This document shows, in pieces, positions 1 to 22,429 of a stretch of DNA of 37,561 nt; position 1 is the first letter of the stretch, and every line of letters begins with the position of its first letter. The stretch comes from Candidatus Berkelbacteria bacterium. GTDB lineage: Bacteria; Patescibacteriota; UBA1384; XYA2-FULL-43-10; CAINNR01. Under the pieces are notes generated by a model. That model searched no databases and had not been told where the DNA came from. It saw only the letters and a list, made by a program, of their open reading frames with translations. Both the position numbers and the translations under genes were made by a program. The DNA is taken from assembly GCA_026397235.1 (NCBI GenBank), contig JAPLVG010000023.1, forward strand, positions 72,378 to 109,938. Reading direction: 5' to 3'.

Positions 1-85
1 CACTCGCTTGAAATGTTGAATTGTTATGCGAGCAAAAATGGAGGGGGTTGGGGGGAGGAAATTTTTGCTCGCTTCTTTTTGGGCG
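1..85. repeat. Left arm of an 85-bp inverted repeat flanking the XRE-S66-LysE cassette
   Basis: These 85 bases are the reverse complement of 1991-2075 with a single mismatch (base 83 against 1993). The arm contains a 12-bp hairpin (GCGAGCAAAAAT/ATTTTTGCTCGC) around a G-rich loop when read on the plus strand. The window opens inside or at the edge of this arm, so its outer limit is unknown. The two arms enclose exactly three co-oriented genes, which suggests a unit that moved or inverted together. That is inference: no transposase lies between the arms. Confidence 0.85.
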
Positions 86-1703: not shown

Positions 1704-1907
1704 TTAATTTATTAATTCTTCGATTGGGATATTTAATGCCTTCGCAATTTTAGAAATAACCAAAATGGAAGGATTTTTGATGACATTGCTCTCAATCTTC
1801 GTTAAAGTTGTATATTTTACATCCGATATTTTTGCAAAATCTTCTTGCGACAAACCAAGTTTTAATCGATATTTCTTTATATTTTCGCTTATAATATTTA
1901 TTGTCAT
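1704..1907 (-). CDS. XRE-family helix-turn-helix regulator
   Basis: A 67-residue single-domain DNA-binding protein of the Cro/C1 type. The HTH runs from about residue 8 to 60, with LGLSQEDFAKISDVKYTTL as helices 2-3 and a conserved C-terminal helix ending AKALNIPIEELI. It has no extra domain. First gene of the minus-strand unit XRE-S66-LysE, so it probably autoregulates the promoter upstream (roughly 1910-1960) and with it the peptidase and exporter. No operator could be confirmed. Its size is normal for solitary XRE proteins of plasmids, phages and toxin-antitoxin-like cassettes. Confidence 0.85.
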   Translation of the reverse strand: MTINIISENIKKYRLKLGLSQEDFAKISDVKYTTLTKIESNVIKNPSILVISKIAKALNIPIEELIN

Positions 1908-1990
1908 ATTTCAATATGTTGATAGTACATTAGTGGTATGATATGCTTTCAATATAATACTAACACATGAAATGCATTTCTTCAATTTTG

Positions 1991-2075
1991 CGTCCAAAAA
2001 GAAGCGAGCAAAAATTTCCTCCCCCCAACCCCCTCCATTTTTGCTCGCATAACAATTCAACATTTCAAGCGAGTG
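1991..2075. repeat. Right arm of the 85-bp inverted repeat flanking the cassette
   Basis: Reverse complement of 1-85 (84 of 85 bases). It carries the hairpin of 2004-2048. The arm ends within the left stem of the next hairpin (2073-2115), so repeat and hairpin array are physically fused. The gap between the XRE gene and the recombinase (1908-2453) holds this arm, two C-rich-loop hairpins, a further 8-bp palindrome (2122-2129 with 2158-2165), the recombinase-tail repeat at 2180 and no convincing intact gene. Confidence 0.85.
2004..2048. repeat. Hairpin with C-rich (CCTCC-containing) loop, copy 1
   Basis: A perfect 12-bp stem (GCGAGCAAAAAT with ATTTTTGCTCGC) encloses a 21-base pyrimidine-rich loop beginning TTCCTCCCC and ending CCCCTCC. 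The same hairpin is present in opposite orientation at about 28-72. On the complementary strand the loop is G-rich, with GGAGG at both edges. It is not a standard intrinsic terminator because no T-run follows. Confidence 0.8.
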
Positions 2076-2115
2076 CGACCGCTTTTCCTCCCCACACCCC
2101 TCCAAGCGGTCGCAC
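2073..2115. repeat. Hairpin with C-rich (CCTCC-containing) loop, copy 2 with different stem
   Basis: A perfect 12-bp stem (GTGCGACCGCTT with AAGCGGTCGCAC) encloses a 19-base loop that again begins TTCCTCCCC and ends CCCCTCC. The stem is unrelated to that of the hairpin 24 bases upstream, yet the loop is nearly the same. Conserved loop with freely changing, self-complementary stem implies selection on structure or a shared origin. Confidence 0.8.
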
Positions 2116-2179
2116 GAGCGGAGCTCGAAAATTATTCGCCATTTTGTTCGAAAAAAGTTCGAGCTTGAGAGAGAACACA

Positions 2180-2314
2180 CCACCATAATGTATTTACTTG
2201 TTCGGAAGCCGCCTCGCGCGAGCCAAAGGCTCGCGCTTCGGCTGGCAAATTGTAGAGTAAAGTATATTGTTTTTCAAAATTCATTTGTAGCTTTCCGTCC
2301 AGTAAAATGCGGTT
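2180..2314. repeat. 135-bp inverted repeat, left copy
   Basis: Perfect reverse complement of 3828-3962. It corresponds to the 3' end of the recombinase gene up to the CCACC of the tRNA-Ala end. It contains the hairpin GCGAGCC-AAA-GGCTCGC inside a longer imperfect palindrome. A recombinase inside a pair of identical inverted repeats is a substrate for inversion by homologous or site-specific recombination. Confidence 0.9.
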
Positions 2315-2398
2315 ACTATGCAAAGCAAGGAAAGTATGACTTGTTCATACTTCAGAGCCGACGGTTTTATCGCCTTTTGGGCGAATTGGCAAGATTTC
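2180..2398 (-). pseudogene. Remnant of the 3' end of a second serine recombinase gene
   Basis: On the minus strand this stretch encodes the same C-terminal residues as the intact recombinase (SNRILLDGKLQMNF onward to NTLWW). Beyond the 135-bp identity, shorter matches continue: 2355-2368 with 3813-3826, and 2385-2398 with 3766-3779. Similarity therefore decays away from the tip. A 40-base piece at 2315-2354, itself palindromic (AAGTATGA/TCATACTT), interrupts the match. I read it as the decayed tail of an earlier, oppositely oriented copy of the element. A partial gene conversion by the intact copy would explain the 135 identical bases. Confidence 0.7.
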
Positions 2399-2453
2399 TA
2401 TTGTCGGTGTAATTCCAGAAAGCATTTAATAGACAAAATATAGGGAGGGAAAA

Positions 2454-3986
2454 ATGATCAAGTATTTCATCTACTGCCGAAAGTCGTCTGAGGAAGAAGA
2501 ACGACAAATTTTGTCTATTGAGGCCCAGCTCCAAGAACTAAGAGATTACGCCAAGCAAAACTCACTTTTTGTGATAAAAGAATTCTTTGAAAGTCGAACA
2601 GCCAAGGAGCCGGGCCGACCAATTTTTAATCAAATGCTTTCTGAAATAGAAAAAGGCAACGCCTCAGGAATTTTAGCGTGGAACCCTGATCGTTTAGCTC
2701 GTAACTCAATAGATGGTGGAAAAGTCATATATCTCGTCGATACTGCTAAAATTACATCTCTAAAATTCCCGACATTTTGGTTTGATACAACTCCACAAGG
2801 TAAATTTATGTTAAGCGTTGCCTTTGGCCAGGCCAAATATTACACCGACAATTTAAGAGAAAACATTTTGAGAGGCATAAGGCAAAAACTTCGTCGTGGA
2901 GAATTGCCGGCAAAAGCTCCTTTGGGTTATTACAACGAGCCGAGAATACGCACTATTGAACCCGACAAACAAACCTTCAAGAAAATGAGACAAATTCTGG
3001 AAGCTTTTGCCACTGGCAATTTTACTCTTTCCCAAATAAGGGACAAAATGTTTTCTCTGGGCTTGGTTGGCAAAAATGGAGAACCTTTGCATTTGTCCAC
3101 AGTGCAAGGGCTTTTGAAAAATCCATTTTATTATGGAATGTTTATATATCGAGGCGAACTAATGCAAGGTTCTCATAAGCCAATGATTTCAAAAAAACTT
3201 TTTGACAAAATCCAAAAGGCAATAGTAGATAATGGCAAGCCCCGCAAAAAGATAATAAAGAAAGACCTCATTTTCAAAAACTTTGCGATATGCGGAAAGT
3301 GCGGTTACAAAGTTACTGGCGAAACACATACCAAAAAAAGCGGTTTAGTTTTCTCATATTATCGCTGTACTAAAAAGAGCAAAGTTAAAAATTGTGATGA
3401 GGGCTTTTTGCGGGAGGAAAAACTTGCCGAACAAGTACAAGTGATTTGTCAAAAAGTTTCTATTCCTGACGAGTGGAAAGACAAGTATTTAGCCAAAGTT
3501 GAGGAATGGGAAAACGAACAAAACAACTCCTCAGGAATTTTCGCTCAAAATCTTAAAGACAAGCTAACCAAAGTAAAAGAGAGAACCAATCGGCTTATTG
3601 ATCTGCATTTAGACGGAGAAATTGAGCTTGACGAGTTTAAACACAAGAAAAATATGTTAGTTGAGCAAAAAGCCGATATAGAACAAAAACTTAATGATTT
3701 TGAGCGAAAAGGAAATCATTGGCTCGAACTCCTAAAATCTTGGATTTTAGATGCCAACCAAGCAGGAAATCTTGCCAATACAAAAAATTTCTTCGGAATG
3801 AAGAATTTTTTGAAAACCGTCGGCTCGAACCGCATTTTACTGGACGGAAAGCTACAAATGAATTTTGAAAAACAATATACTTTACTCTACAATTTGCCAG
3901 CCGAAGCGCGAGCCTTTGGCTCGCGCGAGGCGGCTTCCGAACAAGTAAATACATTATGGTGGACCCAAGCGGATTCGAACCGCTGA
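2454..3986 (+). CDS. Large serine recombinase (resolvase + recombinase + zinc ribbon)
   Basis: A 510-residue site-specific DNA recombinase. The N-terminal resolvase domain (about 3-140) has YCRKSS, with Ser10 the likely nucleophile, and PDRLARN as a conserved Arg motif. A recombinase DNA-binding domain follows (about 155-265). A zinc ribbon is formed by CGKC (about 280-283) with later Cys residues in YYRCTKKSKVKNC. A charged coiled-coil-like region spans about 345-425. The start has a strong GGGAGGG 5 bases upstream. The last codons run into the 3' end of the oppositely oriented tRNA-Ala gene, whose sequence supplies the TGA stop. The tail (about residues 459-503) is encoded by the 135-bp inverted repeat and includes a translated palindrome. 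Likely the integrase of an element inserted at tRNA-Ala, perhaps able to flip its own segment. Confidence 0.93.
   Translation: MIKYFIYCRKSSEEEERQILSIEAQLQELRDYAKQNSLFVIKEFFESRTAKEPGRPIFNQMLSEIEKGNASGILAWNPDRLARNSIDGGKVIYLVDTAKITSLKFPTFWFDTTPQGKFMLSVAFGQAKYYTDNLRENILRGIRQKLRRGELPAKAPLGYYNEPRIRTIEPDKQTFKKMRQILEAFATGNFTLSQIRDKMFSLGLVGKNGEPLHLSTVQGLLKNPFYYGMFIYRGELMQGSHKPMISKKLFDKIQKAIVDNGKPRKKIIKKDLIFKNFAICGKCGYKVTGETHTKKSGLVFSYYRCTKKSKVKNCDEGFLREEKLAEQVQVICQKVSIPDEWKDKYLAKVEEWENEQNNSSGIFAQNLKDKLTKVKERTNRLIDLHLDGEIELDEFKHKKNMLVEQKADIEQKLNDFERKGNHWLELLKSWILDANQAGNLANTKNFFGMKNFLKTVGSNRILLDGKLQMNFEKQYTLLYNLPAEARAFGSREAASEQVNTLWWTQADSNR
3828..3962. repeat. 135-bp inverted repeat, right copy (recombinase tail to tRNA end)
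   Basis: Perfect inverted copy of 2180-2314. Its outer edge is the CCACC of the tRNA-Ala 3' end (3958-3962). The shared block thus stops at the expected attachment point of an element inserted at the tRNA terminus. It holds the palindrome CGCGAGCC-TTT-GGCTCGCG at about 3907-3925, which is read as protein in the recombinase. Confidence 0.9.
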
Positions 3987-4033
3987 CCTCTTCGCTGCCA
4001 GCGAAGCGTTCTAGCCAACTGAACTATGGGCCC
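3957..4033 (-). tRNA. tRNA-Ala (anticodon GGC), CCA encoded
   Basis: A 77-base cloverleaf on the minus strand. Acceptor GGGCCCA pairs with TGGGTCC, including the G3-U70 pair that is the alanine identity element. D-stem GTTC/GAAC, anticodon stem CTTCG/CGAAG with loop CTGGCAG (anticodon GGC), T-arm GCGGTTCGAATCCGC, discriminator A and genomic CCA. Its 3' end overlaps the recombinase tail from the other strand, and its first 10 bases contain the stop codon of the GIY-YIG gene upstream on the same strand. Confidence 0.96.
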
Positions 4034-7475: not shown

Positions 7476-8492
7476 TCATAAGCCGCTGGATTCGTCCAGC
7501 GGCTGTTTTAATTTCTTGGCAATTGCCAATTCCTCGTCTGGTTTGATAAATTTAGTTTCAAAATCAAGATATTCAAGTCCAGCCGTAATTTTTTTTCTGA
7601 TTAAAGATGAGCCAAAGCCGATCTCGCCCGAAAAGACTACCACGTCTACTCCGCCTAGCGCAGCAGCGTAAGCCCCAATATACTTTTTTGTCCGATAGCA
7701 AAGAACATCTATAGCAAGTTTTGACATTTCATCATCGCTCTCCAAGAGCTCTAACATATCACCAGATGTTCCGGAAATTCCTGCCAAACCGGAATGATTT
7801 TCTATTAAATCTCTGGTCTTTTTTTCACTAATTTTCTCAGTTAAAAACAAAACAATTTCCGGATCAATGTCACCGCTCCGCTTTTGCATTGGAAGTCCTT
7901 CAATTGGCGTAAATCCCATTGACGTGTCGATCGGTTTGCCACAATTAATCGCCGCCATACTACAACCGGCGCCTAAATGAATTGTTATGATTTTCTTCTC
8001 ATTGTCCGGATCAATCTGACTCAACATCCAATTATGAGAAATTCCGTGAAAACCAAAGCGCTTAATATTAAATTCTTCAGCAATTTTTTGGTCAATTGGA
8101 TAGGTTTTAGCCACAGCCGGCAAATCTTTGAAAAATGCGGTATCAAAAGCCGCGAAATGTTGGCTCAGGGGCAATTTGTTAATTAAATATCGAATTGCCT
8201 CAATTGCAGGCGGATTATGATGAGGCGCTAATGGGGAGAATTTTTGAATAATGTTTATTGTTGGTAAAGTTATCGGCATAATTTCATCAGCAATATCTCC
8301 GCCATGAACCACTCGATATCCAGTTTTAGTGATTTCGGAAGCCTGATTTCCAATTTCCACCAAAATTTTATCGATAACTTTAGGAATATTGTCTCCGGCA
8401 AAAGAAAACTTTCCGGTCTTAATTTCATCAAGCTCGTCATCAAAAAGTTTGTATTTAATTGAAGATGAACCAGAATTAATTATTAATATCAT
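7476..8492 (-). CDS. ackA: Acetate kinase
   Basis: A 338-residue ASKHA-fold kinase that makes ATP and acetate from acetyl-phosphate and ADP. Motifs: NSGSSSIKYKLFD at the N-terminus, GYRVVHGG, FDTAFF, FGFHGISH, IHLGAGCSMAAI, DTSMGFTPIEGLPMQKRSGDIDPEI, and FSGEIGFGSS near the C-terminus. It is shorter than the usual 395-400 residues but no core motif is missing. It overlaps the pduL end by 17 bases, so the two steps from acetyl-CoA to acetate are translationally linked. Its last codons lie inside the terminator hairpin of the opposing small gene, and read QPLDESSGL. Confidence 0.94.
   Translation of the reverse strand: MILIINSGSSSIKYKLFDDELDEIKTGKFSFAGDNIPKVIDKILVEIGNQASEITKTGYRVVHGGDIADEIMPITLPTINIIQKFSPLAPHHNPPAIEAIRYLINKLPLSQHFAAFDTAFFKDLPAVAKTYPIDQKIAEEFNIKRFGFHGISHNWMLSQIDPDNEKKIITIHLGAGCSMAAINCGKPIDTSMGFTPIEGLPMQKRSGDIDPEIVLFLTEKISEKKTRDLIENHSGLAGISGTSGDMLELLESDDEMSKLAIDVLCYRTKKYIGAYAAALGGVDVVVFSGEIGFGSSLIRKKITAGLEYLDFETKFIKPDEELAIAKKLKQPLDESSGL
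7481..7509 (+). terminator. Intrinsic terminator of the small membrane protein gene
   Basis: Perfect 10-bp stem AGCCGCTGGA/TCCAGCGGCT with a TTCG loop (7481-7504), followed by GTTTTAATTT. It terminates plus-strand transcripts and at the same time encodes the C-terminal end of acetate kinase on the other strand. Confidence 0.88.
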
Positions 8493-9063
8493 TTTCGTCT
8501 AAAATTAATGACCCAAAACATTTATCGGTAATTCCCGCGGCATTTCCTTCGTCAGTATCCAGATGAACACGCAGCTGAAAATTTTTATCAATTTTAACAT
8601 TAACATCGTCAAAAACAATTTTTCCACGTGGTGTCTCGACAGCAATTTCAACCTTTTGATTTTCCTTTATTTTTAATTCCGCAGCATCAGTTGGACTTGC
8701 ATGTAAATGTCTCTTAGCAATCATCATTGCACAACGATGGATTTCTCCATTACTAGTCTTTAAAATTATGTCTGCACAACCATCAATAATTTCTGTTTCA
8801 TATGGTGCTATAACTCCAATTTGGTAACAATCGGTAAGTGAAAATTCAGTTTGAGTTTCTTGGCGAAACGGCGAGAGAAACCGAGCTGGAATTTCACCCT
8901 TTGGTCCGACAATAGTCACAATTTTATCGGTAGCAAATTCCTTTCGCTGACTTAACTCTTTAATTTCTTTAAACGGTGTCTCAGCTCCAAACAAAAAGTT
9001 ATAATCATCTTTAGACAAGTGAATATGTCTGGCTGAAACTTCAATTTCAATTTCCTTTTTCAT
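8476..9063 (-). CDS. pduL: PduL-type phosphotransacylase (phosphate propanoyl/acetyltransferase)
   Basis: A 195-residue enzyme with the two PduL half-domains. VSARHIHLS (about 9-17) opens the first, and AKRHLHASPTDA (about 116-127) the second; the paired His motifs bind the catalytic zinc in characterised PduL. It converts acyl-CoA and phosphate to acyl-phosphate. There is no encapsulation peptide at the N-terminus and no microcompartment gene nearby, so it is probably a cytosolic replacement for Pta. The start overlaps the gpmI stop by ATGA (9060-9063), and it is followed by ackA in a 17-base overlap. Confidence 0.94.
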   Translation of the reverse strand: MKKEIEIEVSARHIHLSKDDYNFLFGAETPFKEIKELSQRKEFATDKIVTIVGPKGEIPARFLSPFRQETQTEFSLTDCYQIGVIAPYETEIIDGCADIILKTSNGEIHRCAMMIAKRHLHASPTDAAELKIKENQKVEIAVETPRGKIVFDDVNVKIDKNFQLRVHLDTDEGNAAGITDKCFGSLILDENDINN

Positions 9064-10688
9064 AATTTAGTTTGATTATTTACAATTATTTCTGATAATA
9101 AACTGGAACCGGTCATCGACTGAGGTTTAGCAATATTTAACAACTCTAAAATCGTTGGAGCAATATCAGCCAAGGATCTTTTCGATGAGATCATGGAAGA
9201 TAAAATATCACCGGAAGAAACCATCGCTTTGTTTTTACCACGTAGATCTGACCGAACCATAATAAACGGAACTGGGCTCAGGGAGTGAAAAGTTTCTCTA
9301 TCATGTCCGCCGGTGACTTGAATCATTTGCTCGGCATTACCGTGATCGGCGGTGATAATTAATGTGCCATCAACGGCCAACACCGTTTCGGTTAACTCTT
9401 TGAGGCAATCGTCAACCACGTCAACCGCTTGTGTGGCGGCGATTAAATCACCTGAATGTCCAACTGAGTCAACATTAGCATAATTGACTAACGCGAATTG
9501 AAACTTTTTTGATTTAATAGCTTGAACTAATTTGCTAGTAATTTCGGCTGCCTCCATTTGTGGTTTTAAATCGTAACTTTTAACATCTACAGACTCAATA
9601 ATTACACGTTCCTCGCCTAACATCGGTTCTTCTTGACCGCAGTTGAAAAAATAACTTATATGAGGATACTTTTCACTCTCAGCTATACGAAATTGTGTCA
9701 AACCCGATTGAGAAATTATACTTCCAAGAGTCGTGTCAATTCTTTCAGGCGGAAAAGCAATATGAATTTTAGATTCAATAACTGCAGGTAAATAATATGA
9801 TGTAAATGAAACAAAAAATATGTTATTTGGCGCCGGAAATTTCGACCCTAAATTATGCATGCCGAGCAATGCCAAAGTCAGTTGCCTTGCCCGGTCCGGG
9901 CGATAGTTAAAAAATATTATACTATCATTATCCAGAATTTTTGTAATCGGCCCACGTTCATTTCTAATTACTGTTGGCGGGATAAATTGATCCGTATAAC
10001 CAGACTTATAAGCATCTGAAATTGCCGCAGGTGCAGAAGCGGCATAATTACCAACCCCATGAATCATTGCTTGAAGTGATTTGGAAATATTTTCCCAATG
10101 ATTATCACGGTTCATTGCAAAATGACGTCCAGTAATAGAGGCGACTTCTCCGACACCAATTTCAGCAATTTTCTTCTGCAGGTGGACAATAAAATCAAGA
10201 GCGCCAGTATCATCAGTATCCAATCCATCAGTTATGACATGAATATATACTTTTTGTAAATTATAGAACTTGGCCAATTTCAAAAGAGCATACAGGTGAT
10301 CGATATGACTGTGAATTCCACCATCAGAAACCAAACCAATCAAATGAAGTGATGAATTATATGATGCGGCATTGCGACAAGCGTCAACTAGCGCCTGATT
10401 TTGAAAAAAAGTTTTATCTATAATTGAATTTGAAATACGTTCCAAATCCTGAAAAACAATTTTGCCAGCACCTATTGATGAGTGGCCAATTTCCGAATTG
10501 CCAACCATTTTATAATTACCAGCAACCTGTCGAAATGCCTGGAGAATTGCATGTGGGTAGTTGCGCCAAAGGGAATTCATTGTTTTGGGTGAAGACATCG
10601 ATATAGCATTTCCTCCCCAAGATGCAGACATGCCCCAACCGTCTAAAATGGCCAGAACTATTGGCAGATTTTGATTATTTTGTTCCAT
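9060..10688 (-). CDS. gpmI: 2,3-bisphosphoglycerate-independent phosphoglycerate mutase, divergent second copy
   Basis: A 542-residue alkaline phosphatase-superfamily enzyme. DGWG (about 16-19) and GNSEIGH (Ser65 nucleophile) bind metal and phosphate. GGIHSH, RHFAMNRD, NYRPDRARQ and DHGNAE are also present. The usual DGRD is DGLD here, so one substrate-binding Arg is lost, and MDRD is MNRD. It is about 30 residues longer than typical. The ATG at 10688 is chosen, with GGAGAG 4-5 bases upstream; it lies inside the end of the other mutase gene. Part of the run mutase-mutase-pduL-ackA. It may retain mutase activity or have shifted to a related phosphosugar, which sequence alone cannot decide. Confidence 0.9.
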   Translation of the reverse strand: MEQNNQNLPIVLAILDGWGMSASWGGNAISMSSPKTMNSLWRNYPHAILQAFRQVAGNYKMVGNSEIGHSSIGAGKIVFQDLERISNSIIDKTFFQNQALVDACRNAASYNSSLHLIGLVSDGGIHSHIDHLYALLKLAKFYNLQKVYIHVITDGLDTDDTGALDFIVHLQKKIAEIGVGEVASITGRHFAMNRDNHWENISKSLQAMIHGVGNYAASAPAAISDAYKSGYTDQFIPPTVIRNERGPITKILDNDSIIFFNYRPDRARQLTLALLGMHNLGSKFPAPNNIFFVSFTSYYLPAVIESKIHIAFPPERIDTTLGSIISQSGLTQFRIAESEKYPHISYFFNCGQEEPMLGEERVIIESVDVKSYDLKPQMEAAEITSKLVQAIKSKKFQFALVNYANVDSVGHSGDLIAATQAVDVVDDCLKELTETVLAVDGTLIITADHGNAEQMIQVTGGHDRETFHSLSPVPFIMVRSDLRGKNKAMVSSGDILSSMISSKRSLADIAPTILELLNIAKPQSMTGSSLLSEIIVNNQTKL

Positions 10689-12234
10689 CGTCTCTCCGTT
10701 CAAATAAACTTTTAGCAGTCATCTCTGGCGGTTTTTGCAAATCCATAATTTCAAGAATTGTTGGTGCAACATTTGCTAGTGCGCCATTTTGAATTAGTGG
10801 TTTTTTAGCAATTTCTATCTCTTTAGAGATTATAACAAATGGAACAGGGTTAGTGGTGTGTTCTGTGTTTGGTTGGTTTGTTTTCGGATTGATACTCTCC
10901 TCAGCATTTCCATGATCTGAAATAATTACGATGGTGTAGTTGTGCATCAGTAGTGAATTGACTAATTTACCTAAGTATAGGTCAATATATTCAATGGCCT
11001 GAACAGTTGCATAAAAATTCCCGGCGTGGCCGACCATGTCAGCGTTAGCAAAATTACAAATTATTAAATTGAAATTTTTTCCAGCATTGTTAATAATTGA
11101 ATCAGCCACTTTCTCAGCGCTCATGGCCGGAGCTAAATCGTAAGTTGCAACTTTTGGTGATGAGATAACCATTCTAAACTCTCCGGGAAACGGTTCTTCG
11201 CGTCCGCCGTCAATAAAGTAAGTGACATGAGCATATTTTTCCGTTTCTGCAATATGAAACTGAGTTAAGCCCGCATTGCTAACAACTTCGGCTAAAGTCT
11301 TTTTTATTTCTTCAGCGTCAAAAGCCAGAATGCCAATCGGGCTTGGATCACGATTGACGAACGTGACAAAATATAAATTGTTCAAAATCTTTCGGTCGTC
11401 CAATTGAGGAATTTTCTGGTTTGAAAAGGCATAGGCAATTTGTCTGGCACGGTCGGGTCGATAATTAAAGAAAATGACCGAATCATTATCCTCAATTGTA
11501 ATTTTTTGATTTGATTCACCGACAATCAACTGCGGCTCGATAAATTCATCAGTTGTGTTGTGCAAATATGACTGAGATATCGCATCCCTAATAGTTAAAC
11601 TTTCTTTGGCTTCGCCCATAACCATAGCGTTATAAGCTCTGGAAGTTCGACCCCAATTTTTGTCGCGGTCCATGGCAAAGTATCGGCCACAAATTGATGT
11701 AATTCTACCAACGCCAATTTCCTTTAATTTCTGTGTAATATTTTCGAATATACCTAAGCCGGATTCCGGATCTGAGTCGCGACCGTCAGTAAAAAGATTT
11801 AAATACACTTTTTCTACCTGATTATCTTTGGCCATTTTCAGAAGTTGATAGAGATGATTAATATCAGAGTGGACATGACCAGTCCCAACCAATCCCATAA
11901 GGTGCAAGGCCGAATTATTTTTTTTCACATGTTCAAAGGCCGCCAGAATTTTTGGATTTGTAAAAAAACTGCCATCTTTAATAAAATTATTGATGAATAC
12001 TAGGTCTTGCGGTATCACCCGACCAGCGCCGATATTTAAGTGACCGGTTTCCGAATTTCCGGCGGTGTTCGGCGGCAAACCGACGGCGGCACCGGACGCT
12101 AAAACAGCAGTGTGCGTGTAAGTGCGCCACCAAATATCCATATTACGGGTTTTAGCTTGCATGATCGCGTTTCCACCCCAAGGCAAACCAATTCCCCAAC
12201 CATCTAAAATAATTAGAGCTACTTTTCTAATAAT
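10675..12234 (-). CDS. gpmI: 2,3-bisphosphoglycerate-independent phosphoglycerate mutase, apparent ATT start
   Basis: Interconverts 3- and 2-phosphoglycerate. Counting from the ATT at 12234 it has 519 residues: DGWG at 11-14, GNSETGH with Ser61 as nucleophile, DGRDSDPESG, GRYFAMDRDKNW, NYRPDRARQ, DHGNAE and a final TTNPVPF. SDGGVHSH of the family reads GTGHVHSD, keeping the catalytic His. No ATG, GTG or TTG exists in frame between an upstream TGA and the DGWG motif. The first conventional start (TTG at 12186) would remove that metal-binding motif. GGGAG lies 6 bases before the ATT. First gene of the operon; overlaps the second mutase by 14 bases. Confidence 0.88.
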   Translation of the reverse strand: MIRKVALIILDGWGIGLPWGGNAIMQAKTRNMDIWWRTYTHTAVLASGAAVGLPPNTAGNSETGHLNIGAGRVIPQDLVFINNFIKDGSFFTNPKILAAFEHVKKNNSALHLMGLVGTGHVHSDINHLYQLLKMAKDNQVEKVYLNLFTDGRDSDPESGLGIFENITQKLKEIGVGRITSICGRYFAMDRDKNWGRTSRAYNAMVMGEAKESLTIRDAISQSYLHNTTDEFIEPQLIVGESNQKITIEDNDSVIFFNYRPDRARQIAYAFSNQKIPQLDDRKILNNLYFVTFVNRDPSPIGILAFDAEEIKKTLAEVVSNAGLTQFHIAETEKYAHVTYFIDGGREEPFPGEFRMVISSPKVATYDLAPAMSAEKVADSIINNAGKNFNLIICNFANADMVGHAGNFYATVQAIEYIDLYLGKLVNSLLMHNYTIVIISDHGNAEESINPKTNQPNTEHTTNPVPFVIISKEIEIAKKPLIQNGALANVAPTILEIMDLQKPPEMTAKSLFERRDDGTK

Positions 12235-18817: not shown

Positions 18818-19995
18818 TTATTGGAATCGACGCCTCTAGAGCGGTAAAAAAACAGCGTACCGGTACAGAAAATTACTCACGTAATTTGATTTTTGAGTTG
18901 GCTAAGATTGATTCGAGAAATCAGTATATTCTATATGTCGGATCCGATTACGACGGCAGTTTTGACAACTTTCCAAAAAACTTTTTAGTCAAAATTATTC
19001 CTAACAAAAAATATTGGACGCAAGTTGGTTTGTCATTGGAAATGATTAAAAATAAGCCGGACGTACTGTTTGTCCCATCACATATACTTCCAACTATTTC
19101 CGGAAAAAGATCAGTTGTTACAATTCACGATTTAGCTTGGAAATATTTTCCAGAAGTTTATTCTAATAAAGAAATCCGACTTCAAGATTTATCTATTCGC
19201 AGAGCACTTAAAAAACATGCAGATATTATAGTATATTCCAAATCCACCGCATCCGATCTAAAAAAATTCTATCCGAAATCTGCCGGACTGATCAATTTTG
19301 TACCGATGGGATTTGACTCTTCTGGTCATTGCAATCTTCCGATAGGTGACCCTGTGGGGGAGGAACGACATGGTCTTCCGCAAGGTGACCCTGTGGGCAA
19401 TCTTCCAAAAGAGATTGCTTCTCCGCCTGCTGGCTGGATCGCAATGACAAACCAACCGTATATTCTTTATGTTGGACGGCTGGAATCAAAAAAGAATCTG
19501 GTCAATTTAATTCAAGCCTACGACATGCTCCGAAGCGAAAGGGATATTAAAGAAAAATTAGTTTTGGTTGGAAAGCCTGGCTTTGGCCATGATCAGATTT
19601 CTGTAGAAATTAGTAAATCAAAATTCAAAGCCGATATAATAGAAACTGGTTTTGTATCAGACGATGAGCGAAGTTCTTTGTACCAAAATGCCTCACTTTT
19701 CGTTTTTCCATCACTTTTCGAGGGATTTGGCTTCCCGATTTTAGAAGCTTTTGCCGCCGGTATTCCGGTTGTCACGTCCAATGTTTCATCAATGCCGGAA
19801 GTCGCAGGAAACGGAGCAATTTTGATTAATCCTAAAAAACCTTTTGAGATTGCTGCTGCCATGAGCCAAATTATGAATAAGCCCGAACTAGCACGAAAAT
19901 TGGTACGCGCTGGCCAGAAAGAACTTGAAAAATATAGTTGGGAAATTTGTGCACAACAGACACTGAAAGTTTTAACAGGAATGGATAACGAATGA
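18814..19995 (+). CDS. GT4 glycosyltransferase carrying a translated repeat insertion
   Basis: A 393-residue GT-B enzyme of the mannosyl/glucosyltransferase type. The N-terminal domain begins IIGIDASRAVKKQRTGTENY. The C-terminal donor domain has YILYVGRLESKKN, VGKPGFGHD, and the EX7E-containing SLFEGFGFPILEAFAAGIPV. Residues about 171-212, encoded by 19325-19448, are a palindromic repeat element read in frame, including two PxGDPVG repeats; they fall in the interdomain linker, so activity may survive. The last four codons (MDNE and stop) come from another repeat at 19980. It overlaps the Nudix gene by 4 bases and likely acts in surface polysaccharide synthesis. Confidence 0.9.
   Translation: MIIGIDASRAVKKQRTGTENYSRNLIFELAKIDSRNQYILYVGSDYDGSFDNFPKNFLVKIIPNKKYWTQVGLSLEMIKNKPDVLFVPSHILPTISGKRSVVTIHDLAWKYFPEVYSNKEIRLQDLSIRRALKKHADIIVYSKSTASDLKKFYPKSAGLINFVPMGFDSSGHCNLPIGDPVGEERHGLPQGDPVGNLPKEIASPPAGWIAMTNQPYILYVGRLESKKNLVNLIQAYDMLRSERDIKEKLVLVGKPGFGHDQISVEISKSKFKADIIETGFVSDDERSSLYQNASLFVFPSLFEGFGFPILEAFAAGIPVVTSNVSSMPEVAGNGAILINPKKPFEIAAAMSQIMNKPELARKLVRAGQKELEKYSWEICAQQTLKVLTGMDNE
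19325..19448. repeat. Palindromic repeat element inside the GT4 gene
   Basis: Ends GTCATTGC (19325-19332) and GCAATGAC (19441-19448) are inverted repeats, as in the element at 21210-21289. Inside, GCAATCT and AGATTGC form a further stem. Two copies of a 23-base unit with CTTCCGNNAGGTGACCCTG lie 39 bases apart. The frame stays open through the whole element. Confidence 0.8.
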
Positions 19996-20065
19996 TCCAA
20001 ATGACGAATAACGAATTGGGTTTATTAGTCATTAGTTATTTAGCTTATTAGTCATCCATTGATGG
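19980..20065. repeat. 86-bp inverted repeat, left copy
   Basis: Reverse complement of 22344-22429 with 5 mismatches and no gaps. Supplies the stop and last codons of the upstream GT4 gene and the GGAG before the next GT4 gene. Built of short words such as ATTAGTCATTAGTTA. Confidence 0.88.
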
Positions 20066-20072
20066 AGCATTT

Positions 20073-22332: not shown

Positions 22333-22343
22333 AAAAAAAACCA

Positions 22344-22429
22344 CCACCAACGGATGACTAATAACCCAAATAACTAATGACTAATAAATCCAATTCGTTA
22401 TTCGTCATTTGGATCATTCGTTATCCATT
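22344..22429. repeat. 86-bp inverted repeat, right copy
   Basis: Inverted partner of 19980-20065 (81 of 86 bases match). The two copies enclose the second GT4 gene, a palindromic element, the wecG-like gene and the nusA promoter. Similar words recur at about 23720-23760 before clpC. Confidence 0.88.

Follow-up and report, generated by a model that had tools for sequence, protein, structure and literature searches.

A putative mirrored second attP in tRNA-inserted serine integrase elements of Patescibacteria

Introduction

Why should a recombinase gene lie between two perfect inverted copies of its own 3′ end? The question is raised by one locus of the window, by which we mean the whole analysed stretch of 37,561 nucleotides from Candidatus Berkelbacteria bacterium (assembly GCA_026397235.1, contig JAPLVG010000023.1, positions 72,378 to 109,938), where positions 2180-2314 are the exact reverse complement of 3828-3962 (135 of 135 bases, the adjoining base being mismatched on each side). 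Direct comparison bears out the mismatch-free repeat of a preliminary description of this DNA, as well as the decayed matches reported further inwards, which were found (2355-2368 and 2385-2398 against 3814-3827 and 3767-3780) close to where they had been placed and one base out of register. An inverted repeat of this length and perfection cannot be of chance origin. The longest inverted pair of the window that is unrelated to the element measures 93 nt at 91% identity; located at 19980-20072 / 22337-22429, it is a palindrome that recurs through the genome, with about 18 matches. Elsewhere in the window, two tandem adjacent ORFs of 547 and 503 aa (9060-12186) resemble phosphoglycerate mutase genes.

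Three features were left unmentioned in the preliminary description. The outer end of both arms is a 6-nt core, CCACCA/TGGTGG; the right copy of this core is the 3′ end of a tRNA-Ala gene; and a second inverted repeat (1-94 / 1982-2075, 97%), corresponding to the outer part of a half-site that we call P′, flanks the cargo module, runs past the left edge of the window and forms part of the same structure. The 135-bp repeat itself is very probably the P half of the attP of a small integrative element at the 3′ end of a tRNA-Ala gene. Taken as a whole, that is, with this architecture and a proposed working of two attP sites together, such an element is the best explanation and a likely one.

Architecture of the element and its target

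The product of int carries an N-terminal Resolvase catalytic domain (PF00239, 3.8e-20) followed by Recombinase (PF07508, 4.3e-11) and zinc-ribbon (Zn_ribbon_recom, PF13408, 1.1e-9) domains, all of them above the Pfam cut-offs, as in a large serine recombinase. The 3′ end of the gene contains half of its own attachment site, P, which terminates in the core TGGTGG, and from there the reading frame runs into the tRNA gene, giving a C-terminus ...WW-TQADSNR in which TQADSNR is read from the tRNA. Outside the left copy the frame continues instead as ...WW-CVLSQARTFFEQNGE and a stop, the native C-terminus. The left copy had been taken for the tail of a decayed recombinase gene of opposite direction; a tail it is (ORF 2132-2323 on the minus strand, ending in NTLWWCVLSQARTFFEQNGE and a stop), but the sequence to which it belongs is an intact inverted attP and not a decayed gene.

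On the right, P borders directly on the tRNA, as in an attR, and on the left it is followed by the native int C-terminus, which lies in P′; the sequence shows that integration sent P′ to the far end, the attL. Read at the level of sequence, the resulting layout, B.P′ - cargo - rcP′.rcP - int - P.B′, shows an attL at the left, an attR at the tRNA and an extra, intact and inverted attP (attP2) between cargo and int (Table 1). Within attP2, the native C-terminus is encoded at 2132-2179, and 1982-2113 holds two hairpins with G-rich loops. A conserved TTGTCGGTGTAAT motif (TTGTCGGTGTAA-like) upstream of int, outside the arm, is probably a promoter or operator.

Table 1. Features of the element within the window
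Feature	Position	Strand	Basis
Outer P′ region of attL, hairpin with G-rich loop	1..94	+	97% inverted copy of 1982-2075
LysE-type amino-acid exporter, 207 aa	97..720	-	Pfam PF01810, 2.4e-23
Peptidase S66 (LD-carboxypeptidase family), 323 aa	724..1695	-	Pfam PF02016/PF17676; NCBIfam match far below cut-off
XRE-type HTH regulator, 67 aa, first gene of the cargo operon	1704..1907	-	Pfam HTH_3, 2e-17
P′ half of the putative inverted attP (attP2)	1982..2179	-	Inverted copy at the left end of the element; C-terminus conserved in the P′ of relatives
Left arm, putative P half of attP2, core CCACCA at 2180-2185	2180..2314	-	100% reverse complement of 3828-3962
Conserved motif upstream of int	2401..2413	+	Similar motif in 37/77 relatives vs 1/225 control windows
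int, large serine recombinase, 510 aa as integrated	2454..3986	+	ORF; Pfam domains
Right arm, putative P half of attR, within the int 3′ end, core TGGTGG at 3957-3962	3828..3962	+	Repeat comparison
tRNA-Ala (GGC), integration target (B′)	3957..4033	-	ARAGORN; Rfam tRNA, 67 bits

The element measures ~4.1 kb between cores, lies mostly inside the window and is inserted at the 3′ end of tRNA-Ala(GGC), whose encoded CCACCA end is the right core and which was the sole significant match of the Rfam search. The left core, with the junction TTTTGGTGG/TGTGTTC, lies on the same contig ~130 nt to the left of where the window begins (G000:C3:72243-72248; L013:1744-1749), and the inverted copy of P′ meets it there at TTTTGGTGG/TGTGTTCTC; the left-end sequence of the element contains 66 masked or unknown bases in the genome record. 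As in tRNA-targeted islands, TGGTGG stands at both ends and the tRNA-Ala is intact. Moreover, a genome of the same genus (G001) offers the empty site, with leuS, tRNA-Ala(GGC) and KOR in the same order and without the genes of the element. A transposon with terminal inverted repeats was considered and discarded, the ends of the unit being B.P′ and P.B′ and the repeat being internal on the left.

P′ regions frequently contain hairpins whose stems vary and whose G-rich loop (GGAGGGGNNTGGGGNGGA-like) is conserved, both in the window (28-72, 1990-2045 and 2075-2113) and in L083, L086, L089, L091, L097, L114, L125 and L134. In the host genome the strict form of the loop motif occurs only on contigs C3 and C15, both times within these elements, and once on C5.

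Recurrence and concerted evolution

The arrangement is not private to this locus. The same genome holds a copy of 71% DNA identity at tRNA-Leu, with 135-nt arms of its own at 98%, and a third, more distant element at tRNA-Pro whose arms are also 98% identical. A scan of GTDB genomes yielded 80 loci, nearly all labelled CPR/Patescibacteria, and the inverted arm is present in 66 of the 69 loci with enough sequence on both sides (two loci counted twice), with a median length of 124 nt and a median identity of 99%; L090, L115 and L161 are the loci of the double-attP clade without a detectable arm. In the same census, in which two loci appear twice, int has an antisense tRNA or tmRNA at its 3′ end in 81 loci. 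These represent 14 kinds of target (13 tRNA isotypes and tmRNA), and the core sequence varies accordingly, being TGGTGG at Ala, TGGCTG at Gln and TGGAGC at Gly. One double-attP case, with arms of 124 nt at 100%, stands in the complete chromosome CP055308.1. Integrase relatives at E <= 1e-60, a count that includes single-attP relatives, occur in 57 of 145 Patescibacteria genomes.

A few loci depart from the common pattern at their ends. In L114 / G004:C4 (L048, about 3776) the int end adjoins no recognisable tRNA, and an alternative target is possible. At the same leuS / tRNA-Ala(GGC) site, L068 (G008:C9, 4040-8720) has cargo without int, flanked on each side by the same 30 nt of B and accompanied by an additional 3′ fragment of a tRNA, and looks like a relic of repeated insertions. 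The far ends of L047 (12910-13000) and L048 (9100-9180) consist of an 80-nt P arm remnant rather than plain host DNA, as if a new element had targeted the attR of an older one.

Because the double arm is common to 66 of the 69 testable clade members, the duplication must be old, and a recent duplication in this genome, one of the origins first suggested, is not supported. For the outer 80 nt, mean identity of the arms is 97.2% within an element (median 100) and 55.2% between elements, from which it follows that the perfect identity seen in the window reflects continued homogenisation. In this line, the closest match of 46 of 52 left arms is their own right arm; some of the exceptions look like mosaics, and L095 carries arms of two different subtypes. 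In a tree of 65 integrases the arm-bearing group (44 with the arm, 2 undetermined) has a support of 100/99, and 19 relatives at 27-36% identity are devoid of the arm, 13 of which still end on a tRNA. Of the two states, an attP at the int end beside a tRNA is therefore the earlier one, the mirrored copy having been acquired later and once. Altogether, tree and arm comparisons show a double-attP layout of one origin, kept in nearly all members of one integrase clade that extends across Patescibacteria, and with copies that evolve in concert.

A small hairpin of variable sequence is found in the window (2315-2400) at the inner edge of the left arm, beside GAACCG, and likewise in most left arms of the relatives, so that homogenisation stops at a fixed point in much of the clade; some relatives have a hairpin at this point of the right copy instead. 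A diversity-generating retroelement, considered for this fixed inner boundary and hairpin, was rejected, the copies being identical and no reverse transcriptase appearing among the genes seen.

Cargo

In most complete elements P′ is inverted at both ends of the cargo (about 94-100% over ~150 nt, for cargos of 1.9-7.8 kb). The cargo is usually a single operon that adjoins attP2, has an XRE regulator in front and reads away from int, as in 21 of the 24 classified cargos, and XRE homologues occupy the same place in most relatives. It was turned over in the remaining three (L014, L132 and L133), and L094 and L133 carry the same three-gene operon in opposite orientations. The genes carried by relatives often make up a restriction or other defence operon, including an EcoRI-type methylase with a GmrSD/HNH nuclease, type I restriction-modification and DpnII-like type II systems, as well as OLD-like nucleases, C5 methylases and Z1-domain proteins, whereas the exporter and peptidase of the window correspond to no recognised defence system. 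From a Patescibacteria MAG, a study of 2025 describes a type I RM island and names neither an integrase nor a tRNA (PMC12455944). A prophage was discarded, since the scanned cargos consist of restriction, defence or metabolic genes or lack a Pfam match, and none of the IMG/VR viral contigs encodes a relative of the integrase.

Orientation of int

The arms are identical and inverted, and flipping the segment between them would swap the two tails, so that the present ...WW-TQADSNR would give way to the native ...WW-CVLSQARTFFEQNGE; to this extent the early suggestion that a flip rebuilds a complete tail at either end was right. An in-place switch can be imagined on these grounds, in which the int segment is turned by homologous or Int-driven recombination between the P arms and toggles between tRNA-fused and native tail, and it finds some support in seven contigs (L112, L116, L122, L138, L148, L149 and L152) where the tRNA is joined to the 5′ side of int via the P arm. 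These were found by scanning the 5′ side for tRNAs, except for L152, read by eye, the tRNA of which was missed by ARAGORN. In L152 (about 7690-7770) the flanking tRNA seems interrupted, with only its 3′ part recognisable, and possibly bears an intron.

The census of orientations speaks against such a switch, to which we give a low probability. In 81 loci int faces the tRNA, some of them on contigs of 0.79-1.09 Mb, and no complete locus is reversed, as all seven reversed contigs stop before the other arm. Such a break, which falls inside int or its 3′ arm in the reversed contigs, affects 7 of 7 of these and 15 of 81 loci in which int faces the tRNA (Fisher p 2.7e-5). Behind the seven there may be genuine flips or integrations through attP2, populations of mixed orientation, or misassembly across the identical arms. 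Serine integrases, moreover, act on unlike sites, and with A118 Int the combination of attL or attR with attP or attB gave no reaction (PMC3556126). Given int in one orientation at 81 loci against seven broken contigs, and cargo inverted in 3 of 24, flipping of int is possible, yet rare or confounded by assembly.

Why a second attP is kept

With an inverted second attP between cargo and int, the excised circle would carry two mirrored attP sites, which would divide it into two halves, one with the cargo and the other with int. We propose, tentatively and at somewhat less than even confidence, that the second site is functional. Int would integrate the circle by attP x attB recombination at tRNA 3′ ends, with the core regenerating the CCA. 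Within the circle, the two attP copies would recombine, either homologously or in a weak attP x attP reaction, an event that would homogenise the arms and now and then turn the cargo over relative to int. A precedent is the A118 integrase, which has a 50-bp attP and shows in vitro a weak attP x attP reaction, at <5% of attP x attB (PMC3556126). With mirrored rather than direct copies, such recombination would turn a module over and could not remove it.

Either attP could dock, with int facing the tRNA predominating. This orientation would be a locked state, prevailing in our proposal because int then runs against tRNA transcription, which would silence it, and because the native C-terminus is lost on integration. 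If both sites docked equally, reversed int should be common, and it was observed in 7 of 88 cases, each time on a contig that stops short of the second arm. Single-attP relatives manage without a second site, which makes any benefit of it presumptive. A still more ambitious version, which we regard as doubtful, is a two-module system, in which int and cargo form separate modules, the former bounded by P at each end and the latter by P′, with two mirrored attP sites as the joints; modules would be turned over or exchanged without loss, insertion would swap the integrase C-terminus and lock the element, and defence operons would be spread in this way among CPR bacteria.

The main competing reasons for keeping a second attP are an operator role and passive conversion. 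In the first case attP2 would serve mainly as an operator: occupied by Int, this site between int and the divergent cargo regulator would keep int repressed in the circle and in the chromosome. Its position is suitable, as attP2 lies directly upstream of int with the XRE gene reading away on its other side in those 21 of 24 cargos, but the arms, at about 124 nt, are longer than a 50-bp attP, repression requires neither an inverted site nor a mirror of the whole P and P′, and int has a conserved upstream motif of its own outside the arm; as the main function of attP2 this is no likelier than the switch. Slightly less probable still is a functionless inverted duplication whose identity is kept only by passive gene conversion. 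The sharp end of identity at the inner edge, with decayed similarity beyond, is what a homology boundary would leave; however, conversion does not prevent loss, and the 66 testable members that keep the copy extend down to about 37% integrase identity. An assembly artefact, for which it could be said that short-read metagenome assemblies often break at these arms, is refuted by recurrence of the layout with different sequences in dozens of independent assemblies, CP055308.1 included, and has practically no chance of being true.

Relation to known systems

The closest general relatives of the element, here read as an integrative element with two mirrored attP sites, are the tRNA/tmRNA-targeted genomic islands (Islander/TIGER), with which it shares precise insertion at the tRNA/tmRNA 3′ end, regeneration of the target end, cargo and an integrase of its own. 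In the Islander publication such islands are described as usually driven by tyrosine integrases (PMC4383910). The present one employs a large serine recombinase and holds a second mirrored attP inside.

The large serine integrases of phages (A118, phiC31, Bxb1) have the same Resolvase, Recombinase and Zn-ribbon domains and the same attP/attB/attL/attR logic. Phage-type elements normally have one attP, whereas here attP lies inside the int 3′ end and is duplicated in inverted form. Among named NCBIfam families the nearest are those of SCC (ccr) cassettes and the fdxN element (XisF), an assignment that was rejected because the scores remain far below the equivalog cut-offs (XisF 105 of 375 bits, CcrB 80 of 900); those systems target rlmH and fdxN, in contrast with the tRNA targets, inverted attP pair and CPR hosts found here. 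The Hin/Gin switches also have a recombinase gene beside inverted repeats. Theirs is a small serine invertase, unlike the 510-aa large integrase of the window, whose repeats are attP halves and for which one orientation strongly predominates.

Two mirrored attP sites in one genome are known from CTX-phi, which folds its single-stranded DNA and relies on one-strand exchange by XerCD. A serine recombinase makes double-strand breaks, and integration of a folded strand in the manner of CTX-phi was rejected here because concerted double-strand cleavage on it would break the chromosome.

Meaning of the double attP

The integrase type and tRNA islands are known; what appears to be new is an inverted, concertedly evolving second attP as a clade-defining trait, of which no description was found in the literature searched, whose coverage was partial and excluded preprints. 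Such a site, acquired a single time and retained through a deep clade, is unexpected from the standard integrase cycle with one attP, and raises the question of how such integrases control direction. The clade also yields many integrases for which attP and attB can be inferred at tRNA ends. For the Patescibacteria, whose mobile DNA is poorly known, the element represents a delimited vehicle of defence and other accessory genes.
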